Origin: Ferrimonas futtsuensis DSM 18154
Lineage (GTDB): Bacteria; Pseudomonadota; Gammaproteobacteria; Enterobacterales; Shewanellaceae
Assembly (NCBI RefSeq): GCF_000422645.1
Contig: NZ_AUGL01000001.1
Location: 186,001-250,000, forward strand
Reading direction: 5' to 3'
DNA: 64,000 nucleotides
Shown here: one piece after another, positions 10,089 to 64,000 of the stretch
Layout: the number at the start of each line of letters is the position of its first letter
How positions within the stretch are numbered: the first letter of the stretch is position 1
Notes under the pieces: model-generated
What the model saw: the letters and a program-made list of their open reading frames with translations, nothing else
Databases searched by the model: none
Told to the model about the DNA's origin: nothing
Made by a program: the position numbers and the translations under genes

Positions 10089-10335
10089 TTCATCCTTAGC
10101 CGGGGTGCCTTCGGGCCCCCGTTTTTTTTGACCCTGAGACAAAAGGTCAGTCACATCGTCCATACTGGGACATTATGTCCACGAAGCGCTGTCATTTTAG
10201 GTCATCCATTTCCTTTTGGGGCATTTGGTGTTGATCCAACTCTAAGAGCAAAGAGGGCGCGATTGAAAAACCGTGAACCCGGCTGAAAAAATAAGCCAAT
10301 TCGGTCTCGCTTCTCTTGTCAGGAATCCACTCACT
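9947..10335. other. Intergenic region between yigB and the TonB receptor
   Basis: This 389-bp stretch holds the possible 62-codon ORF (minus strand), an orphan plus-strand terminator at 10100-10129 and the promoter region of the receptor operon. A TGGGACATTATGTCCA inverted repeat lies at 10166-10181. I could not match the 5' leader of the receptor (10240-10335) to a known riboswitch. Confidence 0.6.
10100..10129 (+). terminator. Orphan plus-strand intrinsic terminator
   Basis: CGGGGTGCC-TTCG-GGCCCCCG followed by eight T residues: a GC-rich stem with a UUCG tetraloop and a clean U-tract only in the plus direction. The plus strand upstream is antisense to yigB-uvrD and contains no gene, so the transcript it ends is unexplained. 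Confidence 0.75.
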
Positions 10336-12390
10336 ATGCGGTTACAACCCCTGTCCTGGGCCATCGCCCTTGGCCTGTGCTCCCCTCTCGCCACGGCTCA
10401 GTCTGATCAGTTCTTCAATGTCCAGGAGGTGATCGTTGTCTCCGGTGATGCCCCGGCTCCTCAGCAACTGGCCACCACCAGTTTCAGCATTGATCAGCAA
10501 CAGTTACTGAATCAGGGGGTGATAACCCTGGATCAGGCCCTGGCGACCCTGCCTGGCGTCTACGTCCGCACCGGCGGCGAAGGGCGGCCCAGGGTGGATA
10601 TGCGCGGCTTCAAGACCCGTCATGTGCTGCTGTTGGTCAATGGTGTACCGGCCAACTCCAGCTATGACGGCCAGTTTGATCCCAGCTTGATCCCGGCCGA
10701 CCGCATCCAGGAGATCCAGGTTTCCATGGGCGCCGGCTCCCTGCTGTATGGCACCGGCGGCAACGCCGGGGTTATCAATGTGATCACCCGTACCGGTGGC
10801 GATCAGCAAGCCCTCTCCGCTCAGGCAGGTCTGGGCAATGATGACCGTTGGCAGGCGGGGGCCGCGGTGGCCACAGAGGGCAAACAGGGTGATCTGCTGC
10901 TCTCCTATTCGGGTCACGGTCAGGACGGCTTTCCACTGCCCGATGACTTTCAGCCTGCACCAGCAGAGGAGGGTGGCCTGAGAGACAACAGCGACAATCG
11001 CAGTAACAGCCTCTACGGCAGTGGCCACTGGCAGCTAAGCGATGATACCCGCCTCGGCCTGACCGCCGAATATGAAGAGGCCGAGTGGGGCAAGCCTGCC
11101 CGCATCGGTCGATTGGCGGACAGCAAGGTGAAGTATGAGCGGGTGGACGATCTGGAGAAGGGTGGAGTCCAGTTGACCTTCTCCCATCGCCTGGGTGTGA
11201 TGGGCGGCCTTCGTGGCTTCGCTTACTACAACTGGCAGGATAAGCTGGAGAATCGCTTTAACGACGCCGACTATCAGGATCTGAAGCAGACCAGTGATTC
11301 CAAGGCGGTCAACCAGGGGGTCAACCTGCAGTGGCTGCTGCAGGGCGACCACCACTTGCTGACCACTGCGGCCATTCTGGAGAACCAGCAGTACCAAGGC
11401 ACGGTCACCAAACTGGCCAGCTCCGCAAGCAGCAACAAGAGCGCGCCCGCCCTGGCTGGCGGGAATGGCTCAGGTGGCGGTACTGGTGGCGGTACCGGTG
11501 GCGGTACTGGTGGCGATACTGGCGGTGGCACTGGCGGCGGCACTGGCGGCGGCAGCGTTCAACCCAGCATCACCCAATTGGACGAAAGCCAGAACCTCAC
11601 CAGCCTGGTGATGGAGTACCAGTGGCTGGCCGACGGCAACTACGGCGCCACCCTTTCCGCCGGCTGGCATCGCAGCGATCTGGAGGAGAAGAACCGCTAC
11701 TCCGCCCTGGCCTCCGGTTACTACCTGATTGATCAGGACACCAGGCTGTTCGGTTCCGCCAATAGAAAAGTGCGCTTCCCCACCCTGCGTAACCTCTACG
11801 AAGGCAGCGGTGCCAACCCGGATCTGACCCCGGAGACCACGGTTCAGTTTGAGGTGGGCATCAGCCAGCAATTGACCGCCGCCACCAGTTGGCAGCTCTC
11901 CCTCTATCACACCGATGTGGACGACTACATCGAGAAAGATATGGAGGATGTGTATCGCAACTATGCCGAATACCGCTTCCGCGGTGCCGATCTGCTGCTG
12001 AGCAACCGCAGCCTGGATGACCTGGATATCGATCTCAGCTACAGCTACCTGGACGCGGAAAACCGCGGCGAAGACGACCAGAACCGAGAGCAGTTGCAGA
12101 ACCGTCCGTCTCACATGGTCAAGGTCAGCTTGCTGGCGAGGCTGCCCTGGGCATTCAAGGCGCGTCTGGACGCCCAGCGGGTGATGGATCAGGTCTACTA
12201 CGACACCAATGGCCCCGTGGACGTCGAGGACTACAGCCTGGTGGATCTCAGCCTGAGTCAGCCCCTTCCCTGGGATGGGCTCTCCTGGCAACTGACCGCC
12301 ACCAACCTGCTGGACCAGGAGTATGAGCAGAGCGAAGATCTGCCGGCGGCGGGTCGTCAATGGATGATCAGCCTGAGGGGCAGCTTCTGA
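10336..12390 (+). CDS. TonB-dependent outer-membrane receptor (ECF-linked)
   Basis: 684 residues from the ATG preceded by AGGA, giving a signal peptide (MRLQPLSWAIALGLCSPLATAQ). A plug domain follows (about 40-155, with VRTGGEGRPRVDMRGF and GAGSLLYGTGGNAGVINVITR), then a 22-strand barrel whose late region ends in a terminal Phe (MISLRGSF). A stretch of GGGT repeats at about 375-410 lies in a predicted extracellular loop. It overlaps the start of the ECF ATPase gene by 31 bp. The operon argues for import of a small molecule across the outer membrane followed by ECF uptake. The substrate is unknown. Confidence 0.92.
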   Translation: MRLQPLSWAIALGLCSPLATAQSDQFFNVQEVIVVSGDAPAPQQLATTSFSIDQQQLLNQGVITLDQALATLPGVYVRTGGEGRPRVDMRGFKTRHVLLLVNGVPANSSYDGQFDPSLIPADRIQEIQVSMGAGSLLYGTGGNAGVINVITRTGGDQQALSAQAGLGNDDRWQAGAAVATEGKQGDLLLSYSGHGQDGFPLPDDFQPAPAEEGGLRDNSDNRSNSLYGSGHWQLSDDTRLGLTAEYEEAEWGKPARIGRLADSKVKYERVDDLEKGGVQLTFSHRLGVMGGLRGFAYYNWQDKLENRFNDADYQDLKQTSDSKAVNQGVNLQWLLQGDHHLLTTAAILENQQYQGTVTKLASSASSNKSAPALAGGNGSGGGTGGGTGGGTGGDTGGGTGGGTGGGSVQPSITQLDESQNLTSLVMEYQWLADGNYGATLSAGWHRSDLEEKNRYSALASGYYLIDQDTRLFGSANRKVRFPTLRNLYEGSGANPDLTPETTVQFEVGISQQLTAATSWQLSLYHTDVDDYIEKDMEDVYRNYAEYRFRGADLLLSNRSLDDLDIDLSYSYLDAENRGEDDQNREQLQNRPSHMVKVSLLARLPWAFKARLDAQRVMDQVYYDTNGPVDVEDYSLVDLSLSQPLPWDGLSWQLTATNLLDQEYEQSEDLPAAGRQWMISLRGSF
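11473..11557 (+). repeat. 12-bp tandem repeat coding for Gly-Gly-Gly-Thr
   Basis: About seven imperfect copies of GGTGGCGGTACT inside the receptor gene encode a GGGT tract. The unit is a multiple of three, so copy changes would lengthen or shorten the loop without shifting the frame. Confidence 0.85.
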
Positions 12391-13658
12391 CCCAGGCCCT
12401 TCTGACCCTGTCCGGGGTCACCCTGAAACGCATGGGGGTACCGCTCTGGCCCCCCCTGGATCTGTGCCTCGCCCCCGGTGAGGCACTGCTGATCCGGGGG
12501 GATACCGGCATCGGTAAGAGCAGCCTGCTGCAGTTGATGGCCGGGCTGCTGCCGGCGGATACCGGCCAGATCAGGATGGAAGGCAGAGCCGCCCTGGTGA
12601 TGCAGGACCCTGACCTGCAGCTGGTGCGGGAGATGATCGGCCCGGAGGTGGCTCTGTGGCTGGAAACCCTGGGCATGGCACCTGATGCCATGGCGGCCAG
12701 GGTCCGTCAGGCACTGGACAAGGTCGGTCTTAACCTGCCCTTCACGCACCCTTGCCGAGCCCTCTCCCAGGGCCAGCAGTATCGGCTGCTGCTGGCCTGT
12801 CAGCTGGTGGCTCATCCGCAACTGTTGCTGCTGGACGAACCCTGGGGGCAACTGGATGAGCAGGGCTTTCGCTCTCTCAAGCCTCTGCTGCTGGACCTCA
12901 AACGACGGGGGGTGGCCCTGGTGATCTGCGACCACTGCCACGCTCCCTACGAGGATCTGTGTGACCGTACTCTGACCCTGGCCCGAGAGGGATTGAGCTC
13001 TGCTCCTGTAGCCCATTCCTCGATACCGCCCTGGCCCAGCCAGGCACCGGGGCAGTGGCGCCTGCGCCTCAAGGGCTCTCTGCCCCTGGCCGAGCGCCGG
13101 CTGTCGCTCTCCGACCTCTCTCTGGCACAGGGAGAAGCGGCGATCATCAGCGGGGCCAACGGCACAGGCAAAACCACCCTGGCTCGGGCCATTGTCGGCC
13201 TGGGCGGCGCCCGCCCCGACGCCATAGAGGTGCGCAGCAATTGCCGGCTGGCACTGGTGTGTCAGTCTCCCTCCCATCAACTCAGCGCCCGGACCGTGAT
13301 TGACGAACTGGCTCTGGGCCTCAGCCTTCAGGGCCTGACCGAGGCGCAGGCGAATCTGCGCATCCAGTCCGAGTTGGAGCAACTGGGGCTGGATCATCTG
13401 TCCCAGCGCTCTCCCCAGACCCTCTCCTACGGCCAGCAGCACCTGGTGGCCATCGCCGCGCAACTCTGCCTGGAACCGGACTTGTTGATCCTGGATGACC
13501 CCTTCGCCGGCCTGGATGACGACAGCCGCCAACGTCTGTGGTTGGCGCTGCAGCGACGGGTCGCGGCCGGAGGGAGTGCGGTCATCACCAGTCATCACCC
13601 CCTTGAGACTGACGTTCACCAGTGGCAGATCCAGGAGAACCGGCTTGTTGCTCTCTGA
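12360..13658 (+). CDS. ECF transporter ATPase, two fused ABC domains (EcfA-EcfA')
   Basis: 432 residues holding two ABC ATPase units. Unit 1 has Walker A GDTGIGKSS (about 45-53), signature LSQGQQYR and Walker B LLLLDEPWGQLD. Unit 2 has Walker A GANGTGKTT (about 265), signature LSYGQQHL and Walker B LLILDDPFAGLD, in which the catalytic Glu is replaced by Asp. The fusion replaces the usual EcfA/EcfA' heterodimer that powers vitamin and metal ECF importers. The start overlaps the receptor gene by 31 bp; the end overlaps ecfT. Confidence 0.93.
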   Translation: MDDQPEGQLLTQALLTLSGVTLKRMGVPLWPPLDLCLAPGEALLIRGDTGIGKSSLLQLMAGLLPADTGQIRMEGRAALVMQDPDLQLVREMIGPEVALWLETLGMAPDAMAARVRQALDKVGLNLPFTHPCRALSQGQQYRLLLACQLVAHPQLLLLDEPWGQLDEQGFRSLKPLLLDLKRRGVALVICDHCHAPYEDLCDRTLTLAREGLSSAPVAHSSIPPWPSQAPGQWRLRLKGSLPLAERRLSLSDLSLAQGEAAIISGANGTGKTTLARAIVGLGGARPDAIEVRSNCRLALVCQSPSHQLSARTVIDELALGLSLQGLTEAQANLRIQSELEQLGLDHLSQRSPQTLSYGQQHLVAIAAQLCLEPDLLILDDPFAGLDDDSRQRLWLALQRRVAAGGSAVITSHHPLETDVHQWQIQENRLVAL

Positions 13659-14340
13659 CCCCGTCGCCCAGACCCGCTTCAAGCTGGTGGTGACCCCCCT
13701 GGCCACCTCACTGGTGCTGCTGGGGCCGCCTGGGTTACTGCTCCCCATGACGTTACTGCTTCTCTGGGCCATAGTGCGATGCCCTGGCGGCAGTGGCGCC
13801 TTGTGGCAACTCAGATACCTCGCCCTGATTCAGGGGACGGTGATCGGTCTGCTCTATCTGCTCAGGTTTGGCCCCTCGGGGTTGACGGCCGCCGGCCTGA
13901 TCTGGGGCCGAATGATGCTGATGCTGCTGCCCGGACTGTGGTTTTTCCTCAGCACCCAGTCTCATCAGGTCGTCCGCGGCTTGAGGGGTATCCTGGGCAG
14001 CCATCAGGCACTCATCCTCTCCACCACCCTGAGCCTGCTGCCCAGGCTGACCCGTGAGGCCAGAGAACTCTATCAACTGCAGCGACTGCGAGGACACCCC
14101 CTGGCCCCAAATCAGTTCTGGCACCCCAAGGCCTGGCAGGCGCTGATCAAGCTGGTGCTGCTGCCTCTGCTGATTCGCATGATTCGCCTCTCTCAGCAGC
14201 AGGCGACCGCCCTTCAGGCCCGGGGTTATCGCCCGGATGCCCCCCTGACCCACTTCCCGATGGAGACACACCATGACCAAACTGCCCCTGGCCGACGCCA
14301 TACTTCTCGGTGCCCTGGCACTGCTGATGGTGGGCCTTAA
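13645..14340 (+). CDS. ECF transporter transmembrane subunit EcfT
   Basis: About 231 residues with several hydrophobic helices. The start is TTG (13645 or 13648) after AGGAGAA at 13633; the first ATG in frame lies inside the membrane region. The C-terminal cytoplasmic part carries the family coupling motifs, LQRLRGHPL and LQARGY, which bind the two ATPase domains. It overlaps the ATPase gene by 14 bp and the next gene by 68 bp, so the operon is translationally coupled. Confidence 0.88.
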   Translation: MLLSDPVAQTRFKLVVTPLATSLVLLGPPGLLLPMTLLLLWAIVRCPGGSGALWQLRYLALIQGTVIGLLYLLRFGPSGLTAAGLIWGRMMLMLLPGLWFFLSTQSHQVVRGLRGILGSHQALILSTTLSLLPRLTREARELYQLQRLRGHPLAPNQFWHPKAWQALIKLVLLPLLIRMIRLSQQQATALQARGYRPDAPLTHFPMETHHDQTAPGRRHTSRCPGTADGGP

Positions 14341-14812
14341 GTCCCTGCTGCGTCTGAAGCTGGGGTTGGCCGGCCACTCCATGTTTCTGCTGGTGCTGAC
14401 CCTGCTTCTGGCCCGGGGGCTGGTGCCGGTCAGGGGCAGTGTTCTCTACTGTGGCCTGATGGCCGGCCTGCTGGCCCTGGTGTTGGGCGTCGGCAAAGGG
14501 GGCCCCCTGGTGGTGCTGAAATTTGCCCTGCCCGCCCTGGCCATGGAAGCTGCGCTGCTGTTGCTTCCCAGGGCCCCCTGGTTTCGTATCCAGGCGCTGC
14601 TGGTGGCCCTTGCCGGTCTGACCGCCTGGTTGCTCAAGGGCGGCGTGGAACTCTATCTCGCCGGCGCCGATGCCTCGGTGATCGCCGCCCAGTTGGCCTG
14701 GAAGGGGCTGGGGGGCTGCTTGTTCAGCCTGCTTGGCGCCCTGGCGGTGCCCCCGCTGATGTCGCTGCTGGCGCACCATCAACTGCTCTCACCCAGGAGA
14801 CACCCACAATGA
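14273..14812 (+). CDS. Putative ECF S component (substrate-binding membrane subunit)
   Basis: 179 residues, almost entirely hydrophobic, with about five or six membrane helices. This is the size and topology of ECF substrate-capture (S) subunits. It sits directly after ecfT and before the DDTD gene (ATGA overlap). It does not look like BioY, ThiT, RibU, CbiM or other S components I know by sequence, so the ligand is open. The assignment rests mainly on topology and operon position. Confidence 0.72.
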   Translation: MTKLPLADAILLGALALLMVGLKSLLRLKLGLAGHSMFLLVLTLLLARGLVPVRGSVLYCGLMAGLLALVLGVGKGGPLVVLKFALPALAMEAALLLLPRAPWFRIQALLVALAGLTAWLLKGGVELYLAGADASVIAAQLAWKGLGGCLFSLLGALAVPPLMSLLAHHQLLSPRRHPQ

Positions 14813-15534
14813 CCCTCTATCTTTGCATCGACGACACAGACCAGATCGGCACCAAGGGTACCGGCGAACTGGCAGAGGAACTGGCCACCCGCATCCAGCA
14901 ACTGGGGCTGGGGGAGTGCAGCGCCGTCACCCGCCATCAACTCTATGTTCACGAGTCAATCCCCTACACCTCCCACAACAGCGCCATGTGCTTTTCCATC
15001 AGTCAGCCCGGCCCCCTGGCGGCCATTCGGGAGCTGGCCATCGATCATCTGAACCGGGAGTCGGCGGCCGGTTCCGACCCCGGCCTCTGCCTGTTTCAGG
15101 GGGAAGACGGTGCCTGCCGTCGGGCCCTGGTCGACTTTGGTTGCCGGGCCAAACGCGAGGTCCTCACCAAGGAACAGGCTTATGAGATGGCCGAACGCTG
15201 TGGCGCCCTGCTGTCCGAACATGGGGGAACCGGCGACGGCATCATCGGTGCCCTGGCTGGGCTCGGGCTCAGACTCGGCGGCAGCGACGGCCGCTTCAAG
15301 GGGCAGTTCGAGGCTCCGGGAGAGGGGGAGCGCTTTACCGTAGCCCAACTGCTCAGGGAGACCTCGCTGGATCAGGTGCTGTCTCTCAGCCACGAGCCTC
15401 TGTCCCCAACAGAGCAGGTGAATCTGGAGGGCAAGCTCAAGGCGGTACTGCTCAATCACCGCATGACCCTGCTGGTGTCCCGTGATGATCAGCGGTGGGT
15501 CAACGCCCAGAAGCGTCACCTACACAGTTACTGA
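14809..15534 (+). CDS. TiaS-like DDTD-domain protein, unknown function
   Basis: 241 residues. The N-terminus MTLYLCIDDTDQIGTKGTG carries the DDTD motif (8-11) of the phosphotransferase domain of archaeal TiaS, the enzyme that makes agmatidine in tRNA-Ile2. The IPYTSHNSAMCFSI block resembles the TiaS IPWKTRGNGA region. The tRNA-binding OB and zinc domains of TiaS are absent. The gene is coupled to the S component by ATGA. A role in phosphorylating or otherwise modifying the imported compound is inference; this is not expected to be a tRNA enzyme in a bacterium. Confidence 0.7.
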   Translation: MTLYLCIDDTDQIGTKGTGELAEELATRIQQLGLGECSAVTRHQLYVHESIPYTSHNSAMCFSISQPGPLAAIRELAIDHLNRESAAGSDPGLCLFQGEDGACRRALVDFGCRAKREVLTKEQAYEMAERCGALLSEHGGTGDGIIGALAGLGLRLGGSDGRFKGQFEAPGEGERFTVAQLLRETSLDQVLSLSHEPLSPTEQVNLEGKLKAVLLNHRMTLLVSRDDQRWVNAQKRHLHSY

Positions 15535-15546
15535 GGAACCCACACT

Positions 15547-15750
15547 ATGAAATTGGAGAAGAGCCGATTCAGGGCGCGGCAATGCCAGAGATTTCACCCG
15601 GACGATGAGGATGAGCAGGTGGATGACCAGCTTCGCTCCTGCGTCAATTGTGCCTACCGCCGCTGGCTGCCCAGCGGTTACCTGTGCCGTCACCCGGACA
15701 CATCGACGAACCAAGTACCCGACCAAAACAGTAAGACATTATTCTCCTGA
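15547..15750 (+). CDS. Small Cys-rich protein, probably zinc-binding
   Basis: 67 residues, after GAGGAA 7 bp upstream of the ATG. Four Cys (13, 32, 35, 47) include CVNC and a following GYLC, arranged like a small zinc ribbon, with an acidic segment HPDDEDEQ before it. It is 12 bp after the DDTD gene and so probably the last gene of the TonB-ECF operon. I do not recognise the family. Confidence 0.6.
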   Translation: MKLEKSRFRARQCQRFHPDDEDEQVDDQLRSCVNCAYRRWLPSGYLCRHPDTSTNQVPDQNSKTLFS

Positions 15751-15839
15751 ACTTTTTTATGGTTTTTTCCTGTCGAGGCGAACCAAGCTCAACTACCTTT
15801 TAGGAGCACCTCCCTATAAGGACAAAAAGGAGAGTAATG

Positions 15840-18038
15840 ATGAGCAGTTGGAATCGCTTGGGACTCGCCCTGCTGGTGGGTTCTTCCTTGATGCTGGGCG
15901 CCTGTGATGGCGACGATGGCGCAGACGGTGCCCCAGGACCAGAAGGTCCTCCCGGTCCTCCCGGGGATCCTGGGCTACCCAGTGACGGCTTCACCCGGGG
16001 CGCTGAACTGGCTTCCGATGTCACCCTGACCCTGGAAAGCATCACCGTCACCGGCGCCGACCCCTTTGCCCTGGCCTTTTCCGCCTCCGGCAAGAACGAG
16101 CGTGGTGAATCCGTGCCCCTGGTGGGCCTGTCCCGCATCGCCCTCTATGTGATGAATCAGGCCGGCAACAGCAGCGACAGCGGCGCGCCGGTGCAGTGGA
16201 TCAGCCATACCCAGGCCAACGAGTTTGGCAGCTCCATGTTCTGTACTCCAACCGGCACCGCAACCTCCAGGGGTAACGAGGTCAATGCCTGTACCCTTGT
16301 GGAAGATCCGGACAATCCGGGTCGCTACACCGGCAGCTGGAGCCACGATGGCAACGCCCCGGTGATCCTGGCCGATGGCGACGCCAACGCCCTGCATCGG
16401 GTGGTGATCCGCGCCTATGACCTGGTGGACAGCAACGGTGAAGGGGTCGAGGACAAGGTGATGTCCGAGCCCAAGGACTTCATTCCCGCCACCGGGGAAG
16501 ACGCCATTTCGGTCAAGGACAGCGTCGCCAACGCCGCCTGCATCCAGTGTCATGGCGCCCTGGAGGGGTATCCGGAAGGGGACGAACGATTCGCCTATGT
16601 GTCACGCCACGGCAACTACCAGAAGGTGGAGCAGTGCGTCGCCTGCCATACCCCGGCTCTGGGTGGTGCCGACTTTGCCCCGATGATTCACGGCATCCAT
16701 GCGGGCGCCCTGGAAGGGTTTGACACCGTCGGCTACCCGGCAGAGCTGTTCCAGTGTCAGCACTGTCACGGTGAGATGGACAGCTGGCAGGCCAATATCT
16801 GGGGACAGGCGTGCCAGGCCTGTCACACCAGTGAAGCGGCCGCCAACCACATCACCGCCGTCGGCACTGATCGGGGATGCGATACCTGTCATGGGGCCGA
16901 CGCGCCTCCTGCCGGGCCGGGTCTGCCTGGCACAGTGGCGGACAGCCATATGCCGATGCGCCGTGCCATGATGGCGGCCACCCCGGGGATGGCGTTTGAG
17001 TTCACCTCTGCCACGGTCAGCGACAACGGCGTGGACGATGGCCTGAGCACCCTGACGGTCACCGCCAACCTCAGCTTCAATGGCGCCCCGGCCGCAGACG
17101 GCTTCGACTTTACCCCCTATATGACCAACACCGGCCGAGGCATTCTTCTGGGCAATGTGGCCAGCGACGGCGTGGTCACCCGCAACACCACCCTGGATAT
17201 CCATGGTGACCGGGTGAGCCTGACCGGGGGCGTGCTGACGGTAGCCAGGGATCTGGCCGACACCTCTCTTGTCGGAACCGTCTATGTGACCGCCGAAGTG
17301 CAGTTCTGTGGGGAGGCAGGCATGGCCATGCCTTGTGAGGCGGACGGCACCGGCTACGCCAACCTGGCGCCTGTGGCCTACTTCAATCTGGATGGCGGCG
17401 ATCCTACCCTGGCTCGCCACAGCCAGCCCGAACGGGTCACGGTCACCGAGGCCAACTGCAATACCTGCCACGAAAACCTGACCCATGTGAAAGGTACCCA
17501 CGGCGCCACCGAGTTCACCCAGTGCATGCATTGCCACAACAGCACCTGGGCCGGCTCTTTCCACCCTGGGGTTAACCTGATCAACGACGATGGCAGCTTC
17601 AGCGCCGTGCCTGGACTGACTTATGCCAACCGGGATCTGGTGACCGTGGTACACCGTTACCACAGCGGCGCCTGGGACAACGAAGAGGCCCACGGTGTCT
17701 ACCTCGATGGCGATGTGGAACTGCAAGGTTATCCCAGCGCCATCAACGACTGCGGTGCCTGCCATACACCCGGCCAGCCGCTGTTTGCCGCCGACGGTGG
17801 CCTGACCTCAGGCAAACGCGCCATCGCCATCGGCGCCGACCAGTACATCACACCGGTTGCAGCCAGTTGCCGCAGTTGCCATGCCCACGCGGATGAAGCC
17901 GCCATGGCTCACTTCGAGAGTATGGGAGCCACAGTGGACAGCAATCCGGACTCCAGCCCCAACCTGCCGGTAGAAAGCTGCGCCACCTGCCACGCAGAGG
18001 GCAAGACCGTTGGCATCGACATGGTCCACGGTCACTAA
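15840..18038 (+). CDS. OmcA/MtrC-family decaheme c-type cytochrome, surface lipoprotein
   Basis: 732 residues, counted from the second of two tandem ATGs, which is better spaced from AGGAG. A lipoprotein signal ends at SLMLGAC. A short collagen-like linker (GAPGPEGPPGPPGDPG) follows, then a beta-rich domain (about 55-215). Ten CXXCH heme sites come in two groups of five: CIQCH, CVACH, CQHCH, CQACH, CDTCH, and CNTCH, CMHCH, CGACH, CRSCH, CATCH, separated by a second beta domain. This is the domain plan of extracellular metal- and electron-acceptor reductases. No mtrA/mtrB partner is in the window. Confidence 0.95.
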   Translation: MSSWNRLGLALLVGSSLMLGACDGDDGADGAPGPEGPPGPPGDPGLPSDGFTRGAELASDVTLTLESITVTGADPFALAFSASGKNERGESVPLVGLSRIALYVMNQAGNSSDSGAPVQWISHTQANEFGSSMFCTPTGTATSRGNEVNACTLVEDPDNPGRYTGSWSHDGNAPVILADGDANALHRVVIRAYDLVDSNGEGVEDKVMSEPKDFIPATGEDAISVKDSVANAACIQCHGALEGYPEGDERFAYVSRHGNYQKVEQCVACHTPALGGADFAPMIHGIHAGALEGFDTVGYPAELFQCQHCHGEMDSWQANIWGQACQACHTSEAAANHITAVGTDRGCDTCHGADAPPAGPGLPGTVADSHMPMRRAMMAATPGMAFEFTSATVSDNGVDDGLSTLTVTANLSFNGAPAADGFDFTPYMTNTGRGILLGNVASDGVVTRNTTLDIHGDRVSLTGGVLTVARDLADTSLVGTVYVTAEVQFCGEAGMAMPCEADGTGYANLAPVAYFNLDGGDPTLARHSQPERVTVTEANCNTCHENLTHVKGTHGATEFTQCMHCHNSTWAGSFHPGVNLINDDGSFSAVPGLTYANRDLVTVVHRYHSGAWDNEEAHGVYLDGDVELQGYPSAINDCGACHTPGQPLFAADGGLTSGKRAIAIGADQYITPVAASCRSCHAHADEAAMAHFESMGATVDSNPDSSPNLPVESCATCHAEGKTVGIDMVHGH

Positions 18039-60793: not shown

Positions 60794-61426
60794 GTCGCAC
60801 TCCACTGGGTTCACAAAAAGAATCATGTTCGGGAACAAAAATTCAGCGTGAGCAGAGTAGCGAATCTGTGAGAAACCCCATTGATCGAGATCAATGAAAG
60901 CCCCATTAGTTGAAAACCGTCACACTTTTAAAAGCATTTCGGCCCCTGTCACTGTTTTTGCTTATAGCGCCTTAGTTTTCGAGACTCAAGACTCAAAAGT
61001 GATGCAAAAACGGTAAAAGCCAATTTTAACAACCCTGTTACGACCGAGAGTCTGCCAGGCTGACATAGAAAAACAGGCTGATCACTAAACAATCCACCAC
61101 AGGGACAAACTGTCCCAACACGCAGTAATTAAGGGGGCTTTCAGTGACAAAGCTCAACAAAGCATTAGGCAAAATGCTTATTTGTTTCAATTTTCGGTCA
61201 TGATTCCGTGAAACCACTGTTAAAGCAGGCTTAACAAGACGATTCAGGTCAAATAACCGTTCGATTTCTCTCTCCCCCTCCGAGGAAACCCGTTTCAGTT
61301 CACGTTTTTCCCCGGGTTCTCCATGGACAATCCGGCCAGCCATTTAGATGGCCTTAACTCGCCCTACAAACAACTGTTTAAAAAAGGCACTACGCCCTTT
61401 TGTCACACCAGATTCGAGAGAAGACG
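60794..61426. other. 633-bp intergenic region before the formate dehydrogenase genes
   Basis: Carries the FNR box at 60881-60894. Further right, a weak hairpin AAGCATT-AGGCAA-AATGCTT (61160-61179) with a T-rich tail may be a terminator for an unseen plus-strand transcript. The minus-strand frame at 61038-61343 has no support. The region is AT-rich around 60900-61060. The fdh promoter must lie here but was not located with confidence. Confidence 0.5.
60881..60894. promoter_or_regulatory. Perfect FNR-type box
   Basis: TTGATCGAGATCAA matches TTGAT-N4-ATCAA exactly. Its centre is about 94 bp from the start of the 36-residue ORF (minus strand) and about 540 bp from the fdh operon (plus strand). 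Anaerobic or CRP/FNR-family control of one of these is likely. Confidence 0.8.
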
Positions 61427-61618
61427 ATGACACAAGATCACGCCAAGTCGACCCGACGCGGTCTGCTCAAGGCCCTGGCCATGGCTCCCGCCGCCGCCGG
61501 CCTCGCCACCGTTGCTGCCCCCTCCAAGGCAGAGACCGGTCGCCCCCAGGAAGCTGTCCAAGGCTACCAGGAAACCGATCATATCCGCCGCTACTACGCC
61601 AGCCTGCGCGGCCAGTAA
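61427..61618 (+). CDS. Formate dehydrogenase-region Tat-signal small protein
   Basis: 63 residues from the ATG after GAGAAGACG. A twin-Arg signal (STRRGLLKALAMAPAAAGLA) and a short mature tail (ETDHIRRYYASLRGQ). Such proteins are encoded directly before catalytic subunits of periplasmic formate dehydrogenases in Shewanella-like bacteria; the role is thought to be structural or in assembly. 18 bp before the large subunit. Confidence 0.88.
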   Translation: MTQDHAKSTRRGLLKALAMAPAAAGLATVAAPSKAETGRPQEAVQGYQETDHIRRYYASLRGQ

Positions 61619-61636: not shown

Positions 61637-64000
61637 ATGCAACTTACCCGCACCTCTGCCAAGGTTAAGGCAGAAGCCAACAAAGGACTGGGCCTCGACC
61701 GCCGTCAGTTCCTGAAGAACGCCGGTGTCACCACCGGTGGTATCGCCGCCGCCTCCATGCTGGGCACCGGCATGATCCGCAAGGCCAGCGCCTCTGACCA
61801 TCACGTCGATCCCAGCGCCCCCATCGAAGTGAAGCGCACCATCTGCTCCGCCTGTGCCGTGGGCTGTGGTGTCTACGCCGAAGTTCAGAACGGTGTCTGG
61901 ACCGGCCAGGAGCCAGCCTTCGATCACCCCTTCAACCGTGGCGGTCACTGCGCCAAGGGGGCCGCACTGCGCGAGCACGGCCACTCCAAGCTGCGGGTGA
62001 AATACCCCATGAAGCTGGAAGGCGGCAAGTGGAAAAAGCTCTCCTGGGAGCAGGCCATCGAAGAGGTGGGCAGCCAGATGCTGAAGATCCGCGCCGAATC
62101 CGGTCCGGACTCCATCTACTTTATGGGCAGTGCCAAGTTCTCCAACGAAGGCTGTTACATGTACCGCAAATTTGCGGCCATGTGGGGCACCAACAACGTT
62201 GACCACTCCGCCCGTATCTGTCACTCCACCACAGTAGCCGGTGTTGCCAACACCTGGGGCTACGGTGCGATGACCAACTCCTTCAATGACATCCGTCACG
62301 CGAACGCCATCTTCTTTATCGGTGCCAACCCTGCAGAAGCCCACCCGGTTTCCATGCAGCACATCCTCACCGCCAAAGAACGCAACAACGCCAAAATCAT
62401 CGTTGTTGACCCACGTTTCTCCCGTACGGCTGCCCATTCTGATCTGCACGTTGGCATCCGCCCCGGTACCGACATCCCCTTCATCTACGGCATGCTGAAC
62501 GTCATCTTTGACAACGGCTGGCAGGATCAGACCTTCATCGACCAGCGCGTCTGGGGCATGGAAGACATCCGTAAGGAAGCCGCCAAGTGGCCCCTGGAAG
62601 AGGTGGCCCGCGTCTGTGGCATCGACGGTGATCTGGTGTACCAGGCCGCCAAACTGATGGCGGAAAACCGTCCCGGCTCCGTGGTCTGGTGTATGGGTGG
62701 TACCCAGCACACCGTGGGTAACGCCAACACCCGTGCCTACTGCCTGCTGCAGCTGGCCCTGGGCAACATGGGCAAAACCGGCGGCGGCACCAACATCTTC
62801 CGTGGCCACGACAACGTGCAGGGCGCCACCGATCTGGGCCTGCTGTTCGACACCCTGCCCGGCTACTATGGCCTGTCCACCGGTGCCTGGAAGCACTGGA
62901 GCCATGTGTGGGATCTGGAGTTTGACTGGGTGAAAGGCCGCTTCGACCAGGGCGAGTACCTGGGCAAGGTGCCCATGACCACCCCTGGCATGCCCTGCTC
63001 CCGCTGGCACGACGGCGTTCTGGAAGACAAGAACAAGCTGGGCCAGAAAGACAACATCCGCATGGCCTTCTTCTGGGGTCAGTCCGTCAACACCGAAACC
63101 CGTGGCCGCGAAGTGCGTGATGCCCTGGATAAGATGGACACCGTCGTTGTGGTCGACCCCTACCCAACCATGGCCGGTGTGATGCACCGCCGTAAGGATG
63201 GCGTTTACCTGCTGCCCGCCTGCTCTCAGTTCGAGACCGAAGGCTCCCTGTCCAACTCCGGCCGCTCCGTACAGTGGCGTCAGCAGGTGGTCGAGCCCCT
63301 GTTTGAGTCCAAGCCTGACCTGGAGATCATGTACCGTCTGGCCAAGAAACTGGGCTTCGCCGAGCAGTTCACCAAGCGCATGCAGGTGAAGAATGACATG
63401 CCGGTGATCGAGGACGTGACCCGCGAGATCAACCGCGGCATGCTGACCATCGGTATGTCCGGCCAGTCTCCCGAGCGCATCAAGCAGCACACCAACAACT
63501 GGGGCACCTTCTCCCACGAGAACCTGCAAGCCCTGGGTGGCCCAGCCAAGGGTGAAACCTATGGCCTGCCATGGCCTTGCTGGGGTACCCCAGAGCAGAA
63601 GCACCCTGGTACCCACATCCTGTACGACACCTCCAAGCACGTGCTGCAGGGCGGCGGTAACTTCCGTGCCCGTTTCGGCGTCTCCTACGAGGGTGAAAAC
63701 CTGCTGGCCGAAGGCTCCGCCTCCCTGGGCTGTGACCTGGGCGACGGTTACCCCGAGTTCACCGACAAGATGCTCAAGCAACTGGGTTGGTGGGACGAGC
63801 TGACCGCCGAAGAGAAAGCGGAAGCAGAAGGCCGTAACTGGAAGACCGATCTGTCCGGCGGTATCCACCGGGTGGCGATGAAGCACGGCTGCATCCCCTT
63901 CGGTAACGCCAAGGCCCGCTGTAAAGTGTGGACCTTCCCCGACCCGATGCCGGTACACCGTGAGCCCCTGTATACCCCTCGCCGGGACCTGATCGCTCAG
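61637..64000 (+). CDS. fdhA: Formate dehydrogenase catalytic subunit, partial (788 residues visible)
   Basis: Starts at ATG after AGGAGAG and is open at the right window edge. Tat signal LDRRQFLKNAG (20-30), [4Fe-4S] ligands Cys70, Cys73, Cys77 and Cys105, then molybdopterin domains. The Mo/W ligand position is Cys195 (ARICHSTTVAG, codon TGT), not selenocysteine, followed by the conserved His. With the Tat-signal protein it starts a periplasmic quinone-linked fdh operon; the electron-transfer and cytochrome b subunits are expected beyond the edge. Confidence 0.95.
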   Translation, partial: MQLTRTSAKVKAEANKGLGLDRRQFLKNAGVTTGGIAAASMLGTGMIRKASASDHHVDPSAPIEVKRTICSACAVGCGVYAEVQNGVWTGQEPAFDHPFNRGGHCAKGAALREHGHSKLRVKYPMKLEGGKWKKLSWEQAIEEVGSQMLKIRAESGPDSIYFMGSAKFSNEGCYMYRKFAAMWGTNNVDHSARICHSTTVAGVANTWGYGAMTNSFNDIRHANAIFFIGANPAEAHPVSMQHILTAKERNNAKIIVVDPRFSRTAAHSDLHVGIRPGTDIPFIYGMLNVIFDNGWQDQTFIDQRVWGMEDIRKEAAKWPLEEVARVCGIDGDLVYQAAKLMAENRPGSVVWCMGGTQHTVGNANTRAYCLLQLALGNMGKTGGGTNIFRGHDNVQGATDLGLLFDTLPGYYGLSTGAWKHWSHVWDLEFDWVKGRFDQGEYLGKVPMTTPGMPCSRWHDGVLEDKNKLGQKDNIRMAFFWGQSVNTETRGREVRDALDKMDTVVVVDPYPTMAGVMHRRKDGVYLLPACSQFETEGSLSNSGRSVQWRQQVVEPLFESKPDLEIMYRLAKKLGFAEQFTKRMQVKNDMPVIEDVTREINRGMLTIGMSGQSPERIKQHTNNWGTFSHENLQALGGPAKGETYGLPWPCWGTPEQKHPGTHILYDTSKHVLQGGGNFRARFGVSYEGENLLAEGSASLGCDLGDGYPEFTDKMLKQLGWWDELTAEEKAEAEGRNWKTDLSGGIHRVAMKHGCIPFGNAKARCKVWTFPDPMPVHREPLYTPRRDLIAQ

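Follow-up and report, generated by a model that had tools for sequence, protein, structure and literature searches.

A TonB receptor and ECF importer operon of Ferrimonas futtsuensis with a genomic link to tungsten and molybdenum

Which nutrient is served by an operon that joins an outer-membrane receptor and an inner-membrane importer to a kinase-like protein? The question is raised by a 64,000-nucleotide stretch of the Ferrimonas futtsuensis DSM 18154 genome (the window), in which six genes, all on the + strand, form one tight operon at 10336-15750. A first-pass annotation called this locus an unassigned uptake and modification operon. Based on regulatory elements, gene neighborhoods and co-occurrence, we propose, with a probability of roughly 0.75, that the operon is a tungsten/molybdenum (W/Mo)-responsive system that takes up a W or Mo complex under cofactor shortage and processes it in the cytoplasm.

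The operon begins with a TonB-dependent receptor (TBDR) of 684 amino acids (10336..12390), assigned from Pfam, NCBIfam and PDB sequences, with both plug and barrel matched (Pfam E-values of 8e-22 and 5e-25). It is followed by a fused double ECF ATPase, EcfAA' (12360..13658; 432 amino acids), in which Pfam places two ABC_tran stretches in one chain, and by the membrane component EcfT (13645..14340; PF02361 CbiQ, E 1e-10), with a TTG start near 13645. An S component of 179 amino acids (14273..14812), a 241-amino-acid protein with a DDTD motif (14809..15534) and a 67-amino-acid protein with four cysteines (15547..15750), recognized from its homologues and their alignment, complete the set. Adjoining frames overlap at TBDR/EcfA, EcfA/EcfT, EcfT/S and S/DDTD, and together with the Pfam matches this bears out the architecture originally read from the sequence. 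Because a single operon encodes EcfT, a pair of ECF-type ATPase domains and a small S component made of helices, the system qualifies as an ECF transporter. The gene set is retained in Ferrimonas and Shewanella and occurs, rearranged, in Geobacteraceae, ruling out a chance assembly.

Sequence searches of Pfam, NCBIfam and the PDB gave no match for the S component. Its AlphaFold model, built from 34 sequences, is a six-helix bundle (pLDDT 92) with a single significant PDB fold match, 5EDL (E 3e-4), the YkoE S component; ThiT, PanT and RibU follow. A distant relationship (81% hhalign probability) connects it to the PF09819 S component of a second ECF set found after the DDTD-FecCD loci L070 and L079. 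Pfam does not place the Ferrimonas protein in PF09819, and its relation to YkoE (thiamine/HMP) is one of fold and hhalign only. The description of this S component as unrecognized therefore applies to its sequence only; in fold it resembles YkoE. The system shares the six-helix S fold, a CbiQ-type T component and two ABC ATPases with YkoE and other ECF importers, but differs from them in having no family-level S match, in including a TonB receptor and in the absence of a TPP riboswitch.

The nearest characterized relative of the receptor is BtuB, although the score is far under the family cut-off (144.6 against 599.7 for TIGR01779); the heme receptor model TIGR01785 likewise gave 149.6 against a cut-off of 316.9. 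For none of the components is the score as high as the cut-off of a characterized vitamin transporter. Uptake of cobalamin, heme or thiamine/HMP is accordingly very unlikely. It would account for a receptor closest to BtuB and heme receptors, for the BtuC-like permease of related operons (below) and for the YkoE-like S fold, but all scores are far under the family cut-offs, and among the 29 loci scanned with Rfam we detected no cobalamin or TPP riboswitch, whereas the Moco/Tuco RNA (RF01055) is recurrent. The operon resembles BtuB-BtuCD, in which a TonB receptor and an ATP-driven inner-membrane importer carry a large metal compound, but it is W/Mo- rather than cobalamin-regulated and includes the DDTD and four-Cys proteins.

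Of the 29 scanned loci, 12, from Geobacteraceae, Firmicutes and kin, have RF01055 immediately upstream of the DDTD operon. These comprise operons with a FecCD-type importer (L072, L075, L079, L082, L084 and L085), Geobacteraceae operons with the same TBDR, ECF, DDTD and Cys set (L078, L081, L083 and L087, with a second copy before the ECF genes in L078 and L087), and L092 and L095. The P3 stem is absent from 17/17 RF01055 alignments compared, namely the 12 before DDTD operons and five before neighboring operons (the tup genes in L073 and L091, and a triple array in L092); four matches in L078 and L087 fall outside this set. Regulski et al. (2008; PMC2408646) showed that Moco RNAs lacking P3 are associated with use of the tungsten cofactor by the organism.

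Rfam detected no riboswitch in the window or in the scanned Ferrimonas and Shewanella loci. In these genera we identified a shared palindrome. The first-pass annotation was right to propose a search for a riboswitch or metal-regulator site. In the window the site, GGACATTATGTCC (10168..10180, no strand), lies 168 bp before the TBDR start. The pattern GGACA-N3-TGTCC stands some 160-170 bp ahead of most TBDR genes; it was matched at 9/10 positions or better, at about -157 to -198, in 34/50 related upstream regions, compared with 4/1000 shuffles. The core GACA-N3-TGTC also precedes tupA in 11/11 Shewanella tup regions fetched and in L096, but in only 2/9 Ferrimonas regions, and the tupA of the window genome has no such site. 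A second copy in the window, GGACAAACTGTCC (61103..61115, no strand), precedes a formate dehydrogenase operon and is retained in another genome, G011 (L146). That operon is headed by a small twin-arginine-signal protein, FdhX-like by its translation (61427..61618, +), followed by the alpha subunit (61637..64000, +; PF00384/PF04879, TIGR01591 E 8e-129), which has Cys at the metal-ligand position and whose gene runs past the window end.

To define the operator regulon, we combined a pattern search in six genomes with reading of the neighborhoods. The palindrome was found between fdhD and divergent formate dehydrogenase accessory genes, and also upstream of genes for ModA (L140), a second TupA-like protein (L148) and a second TBDR (L141). 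Genome-wide it is only modestly more frequent than a reversed control (12 versus 8 in G000), and single unplaced sites therefore mean little; the weight lies in the conserved positions. We set aside palindromes inside genes (L142 3356, L143 3036 and L147 2642), which we attribute to coincidence in coding sequence. A candidate for the regulator acting at the palindrome is the product of the gene following fdhD, a protein with HTH_17 and PBP_like domains.

Relatives of the DDTD protein occur in Ferrimonas, Shewanella, Oceanospirillum, Geobacteraceae, Desulfobacterota and Firmicutes. A search of plasmids gave only partial matches, in Pimelobacter and haloarchaea, and the surroundings of one of these carried no annotation. 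The DDTD and Cys genes stay paired, with homologues of the four-Cys protein present in 78/95 loci, while the importer varies among lineages. Ferrimonas and Shewanella have the TBDR and ECF genes beside DDTD. In Geobacteraceae, DDTD and the Cys protein are accompanied by an ECF ATPase, EcfT and an S component, and further by a TonB gene, a gene for a lipoprotein and one for a TBDR that belongs to the same family. Firmicutes and some Desulfobacterota have a FecCD permease, an ATPase and a Peripla_BP_2 protein, often headed by a secreted Big_5 or PF00174 (molybdopterin-binding-fold) protein; the nearest named relative of this permease is BtuC, again far below the cut-off. TupABC adjoins DDTD in L073, L087 and L091 and lies ~13 kb from the operon in many Shewanella. 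In L151 (G415, Firmicutes), a mini-DDTD-FecBCD cluster is next to the molybdate transporter MOT1, TupABC, a ModE-like gene and an HTH_17-PBP gene.

The DDTD gene co-occurs with genes for TupA-like proteins. It is present in 94/153 genomes of the Ferrimonas/Shewanella family, of which 94/94 encode a TupA-like protein (so named because the matches are below the curated cut-off), and in 0/16 genomes of that family that lack TupA (p 6e-8, a statistic that ignores kinship). AOR genes are enriched with DDTD (31/35), though absent from the window genome. Among the Bacillota sampled, TupA-like proteins were found in 17/21 genomes with DDTD and 132/278 others (p 0.003, likewise ignoring kinship). Shewanella oneidensis MR-1, where the operon lies around SO4712, offers weak support for the W/Mo link: a single table of genes lowered in a SO2426 mutant (PMC2535785) includes SO4712, which encodes an ABC ATPase, together with SO4719 and SO4504/SO4505. 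Taken together, the riboswitches, the shared operator, synteny and co-occurrence tie the operon to tungsten/molybdenum, and it need no longer be called unassigned. The suggestion made from the sequence alone, of a dedicated route across both membranes for a scarce, metal-related nutrient, is supported.

The AlphaFold model of the DDTD protein (pLDDT 94) matches TiaS with an E-value of 1e-10 by fold (Foldseek) and 1e-6 by profile, in the kinase-like TCKD domain only; the protein consists of this domain, standing alone, and a different C-terminal part. Across 49 aligned relatives, D8, D9, T10, D11 and T18 are invariant, and T18 aligns to the first Thr of the TiaS CTT motif, the residue that is autophosphorylated in that enzyme. 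TiaS, the tRNA(Ile2) agmatidine synthetase (PF22641; PDB 3AMT, 3AMU and 5XOB), is among the closest known systems, sharing the fold, the DDTD motif, Thr18 and the GNG/SHNS and PG motifs of a recognizable TiaS kinase domain. It could be argued from this fold and these motifs that the protein is a tRNA-modifying TiaS and that the operon links uptake to agmatidine or a similar tRNA base. We regard this as most improbable because the rest of TiaS is missing: the full-length model NF040849 gives 33 bits against 600, with model positions 1-154 aligned, and no more than about the first 156 of the 422 TiaS positions are matched. Furthermore, the DDTD protein is bacterial, is encoded beside importers and is under tungsten-cofactor control by the Moco/Tuco RNA. 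The C-terminal half of methanogenesis marker protein 11 (TIGR03280), which is archaeal and has an extra N-terminal part, also matches the DDTD domain (E 5e-8); we found nothing on function in the literature on this marker. Foldseek matches to the pterin kinase HPPK were weak (E 0.01 and above) and were not used.

The four-Cys protein has cysteines at positions 13, 32, 35 and 47 in the motif C-x2-F-x2-DDEDE...SC-x-NC-x-YRRW...C, of which the Cys, acidic and YRRW elements are retained in the alignment. Of the designation "uptake and modification operon", the first half is supported and the second is putative: the DDTD protein has a TiaS kinase domain without the rest of TiaS. As DDTD also occurs beside TupABC or MOT1, and sometimes alone with the riboswitch (L092 and L095), the protein may have a broader role in the handling of W/Mo that is not tied to a single ligand.

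The metal may be carried as a metallophore complex, as a metal-pterin or as the free oxyanion. TonB receptors classically carry metal chelates, and a metallophore complex of W or Mo, such as a catecholate, from which the DDTD and four-Cys proteins would free or activate the metal, is a tentative but credible choice. The W-linked regulation, the operator in common with a second TBDR and the FecCD importers, which are of the siderophore/B12 type, agree with it, but we saw no metallophore biosynthesis genes in the neighborhoods, and kinase chemistry offers no obvious release step. Alternatively, and as a special case of the reading that we favor, the cargo may be a W/Mo-pterin cofactor or molybdopterin, with DDTD as the salvage kinase for re-phosphorylation or activation of the pterin after import. 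The kinase fold, the YkoE-like S fold, the PF00174 lipoproteins of Firmicutes operons and the kinship of receptor and FecCD permease with cobalamin transporters, carriers of a large cofactor, are all consistent with this. We nevertheless consider it doubtful, given that nearly all carriers make their own molybdopterin, which weakens pure salvage. MoaA is present in 29/29 carriers and 19/21 Bacillota carriers, with no visible reliance on scavenging; no obligate Moco scavenger (DDTD without moaA) was found among the 29 genomes. The two Bacillota without a MoaA match (G475 and G489; 2/21) are uninformative, as their DDTD matches, and possibly the genomes, are incomplete. MoaE (PF02391), as a second marker, misses most Bacillota. 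The occurrence of DDTD beside the oxyanion transporters TupABC and MOT1, or with the riboswitch and no importer, also argues against salvage. Finally, regulation tells when an operon is made and not what it imports, and the cargo might be something else, for instance a nutrient that bypasses a tungsten enzyme under metal shortage. This is unlikely, considering that the W/Mo importers TupABC, ModA and MOT1 fall in the same regulatory class and neighborhoods.

For uptake of a W/Mo complex, the reading we prefer, we envisage the following route. The TonB receptor would admit a complex containing W or Mo through the outer membrane, and the ECF module, made up of the YkoE-like S component, EcfT and EcfAA', would take this complex through the inner one. 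Cytoplasmic processing may then fall to the DDTD protein, whose TiaS-type kinase domain is predicted to use ATP, and to the four-Cys protein, after which the W or Mo would reach the pterin cofactor of, for example, formate dehydrogenase. Expression would track W/Mo status, so that the operon is made when the W/Mo cofactor is short; Ferrimonas and Shewanella would probably use a palindrome-binding regulator for this, and Geobacteraceae and Firmicutes a Tuco-type riboswitch.

None of the parts is new in kind: TBDR, ECF, FecCD, the TiaS kinase fold and the Moco RNA are all known. To our knowledge, W and Mo enter bacteria as free oxyanions via ABC transporters or MOT1. TupABC, ModABC, MolBCA (also a FecCD-family importer) and MOT1 share the operator or riboswitch class and the neighborhood with the operon, but lack an outer-membrane receptor, an ECF module and a DDTD enzyme. 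In a literature search that left most subscription journals outside, we came across no TonB/ECF system that had already been connected with W/Mo, and no description of the combination, of its W/Mo assignment or of the DDTD and four-Cys families. If our proposal is correct, many anaerobes would also import complexed W/Mo, by a TonB/ECF route with a kinase-like enzyme. It would further give a function to three uncharacterized families, the S component, the DDTD kinase and the four-Cys protein, which are spread over Shewanella, Ferrimonas, Geobacteraceae, Desulfobacterota and Firmicutes. In Syntrophomonas, Regulski et al. (2008; PMC2408646) found P3-lacking riboswitches upstream of 'sulphite oxidase' genes, and the proposal may explain these as well.

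The TonB-dependent receptor that opens the operon (window 10336-12390, plus strand) contains, at residues ~374-407 inside the barrel region, a glycine-rich repeat of the type GGGTGGGTGG, which is perhaps an extracellular loop of variable length. A second TonB receptor is encoded in a Shewanella genome (L141, 805-2901, minus strand) and has a perfect copy of the GGACA-N3-TGTCC palindrome immediately upstream; the palindrome regulon may thus include two TonB receptors.

The product of the next gene downstream of the operon (window 15837-18038) is a multihaem c-type cytochrome whose lipoprotein signal is followed by a collagen-like, Gly-Pro-rich stretch, similar in style to outer-membrane metal-reductase cytochromes.

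Syntrophomonas-type genomes carry, directly after the intact gene for the DDTD protein (the stand-alone TiaS-type kinase domain), an extra degenerate copy with DDSRQLD in place of DDTD (L080, 8957-9706; L152, 4645-5550). Haloarchaeal plasmids encode proteins related to the DDTD protein over its first 138 residues, for example at 8001-8417 of L153, from a Natribaculum longum plasmid, where the surrounding sequence carries no annotation.

At four loci (L070, L079, L085 and L089), the operons that combine a FecCD importer with the DDTD protein are headed by lipoproteins of the sulfite-oxidase fold (PF00174). These may be the ‘sulphite oxidase’ exceptions of Syntrophomonas wolfei among the tungsten-type Moco RNAs (PMC2408646).

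Among the Bacillota sampled (21 genomes with the DDTD protein and 278 others), 17 genomes encode a MoaE-like protein of divergent sequence, matched at E 1e-6 to 1e-10, and nine of these genomes carry the DDTD protein (p 1e-7, from genome counts that ignore phylogeny). The divergent protein is possibly a tungsten-lineage molybdopterin synthase.
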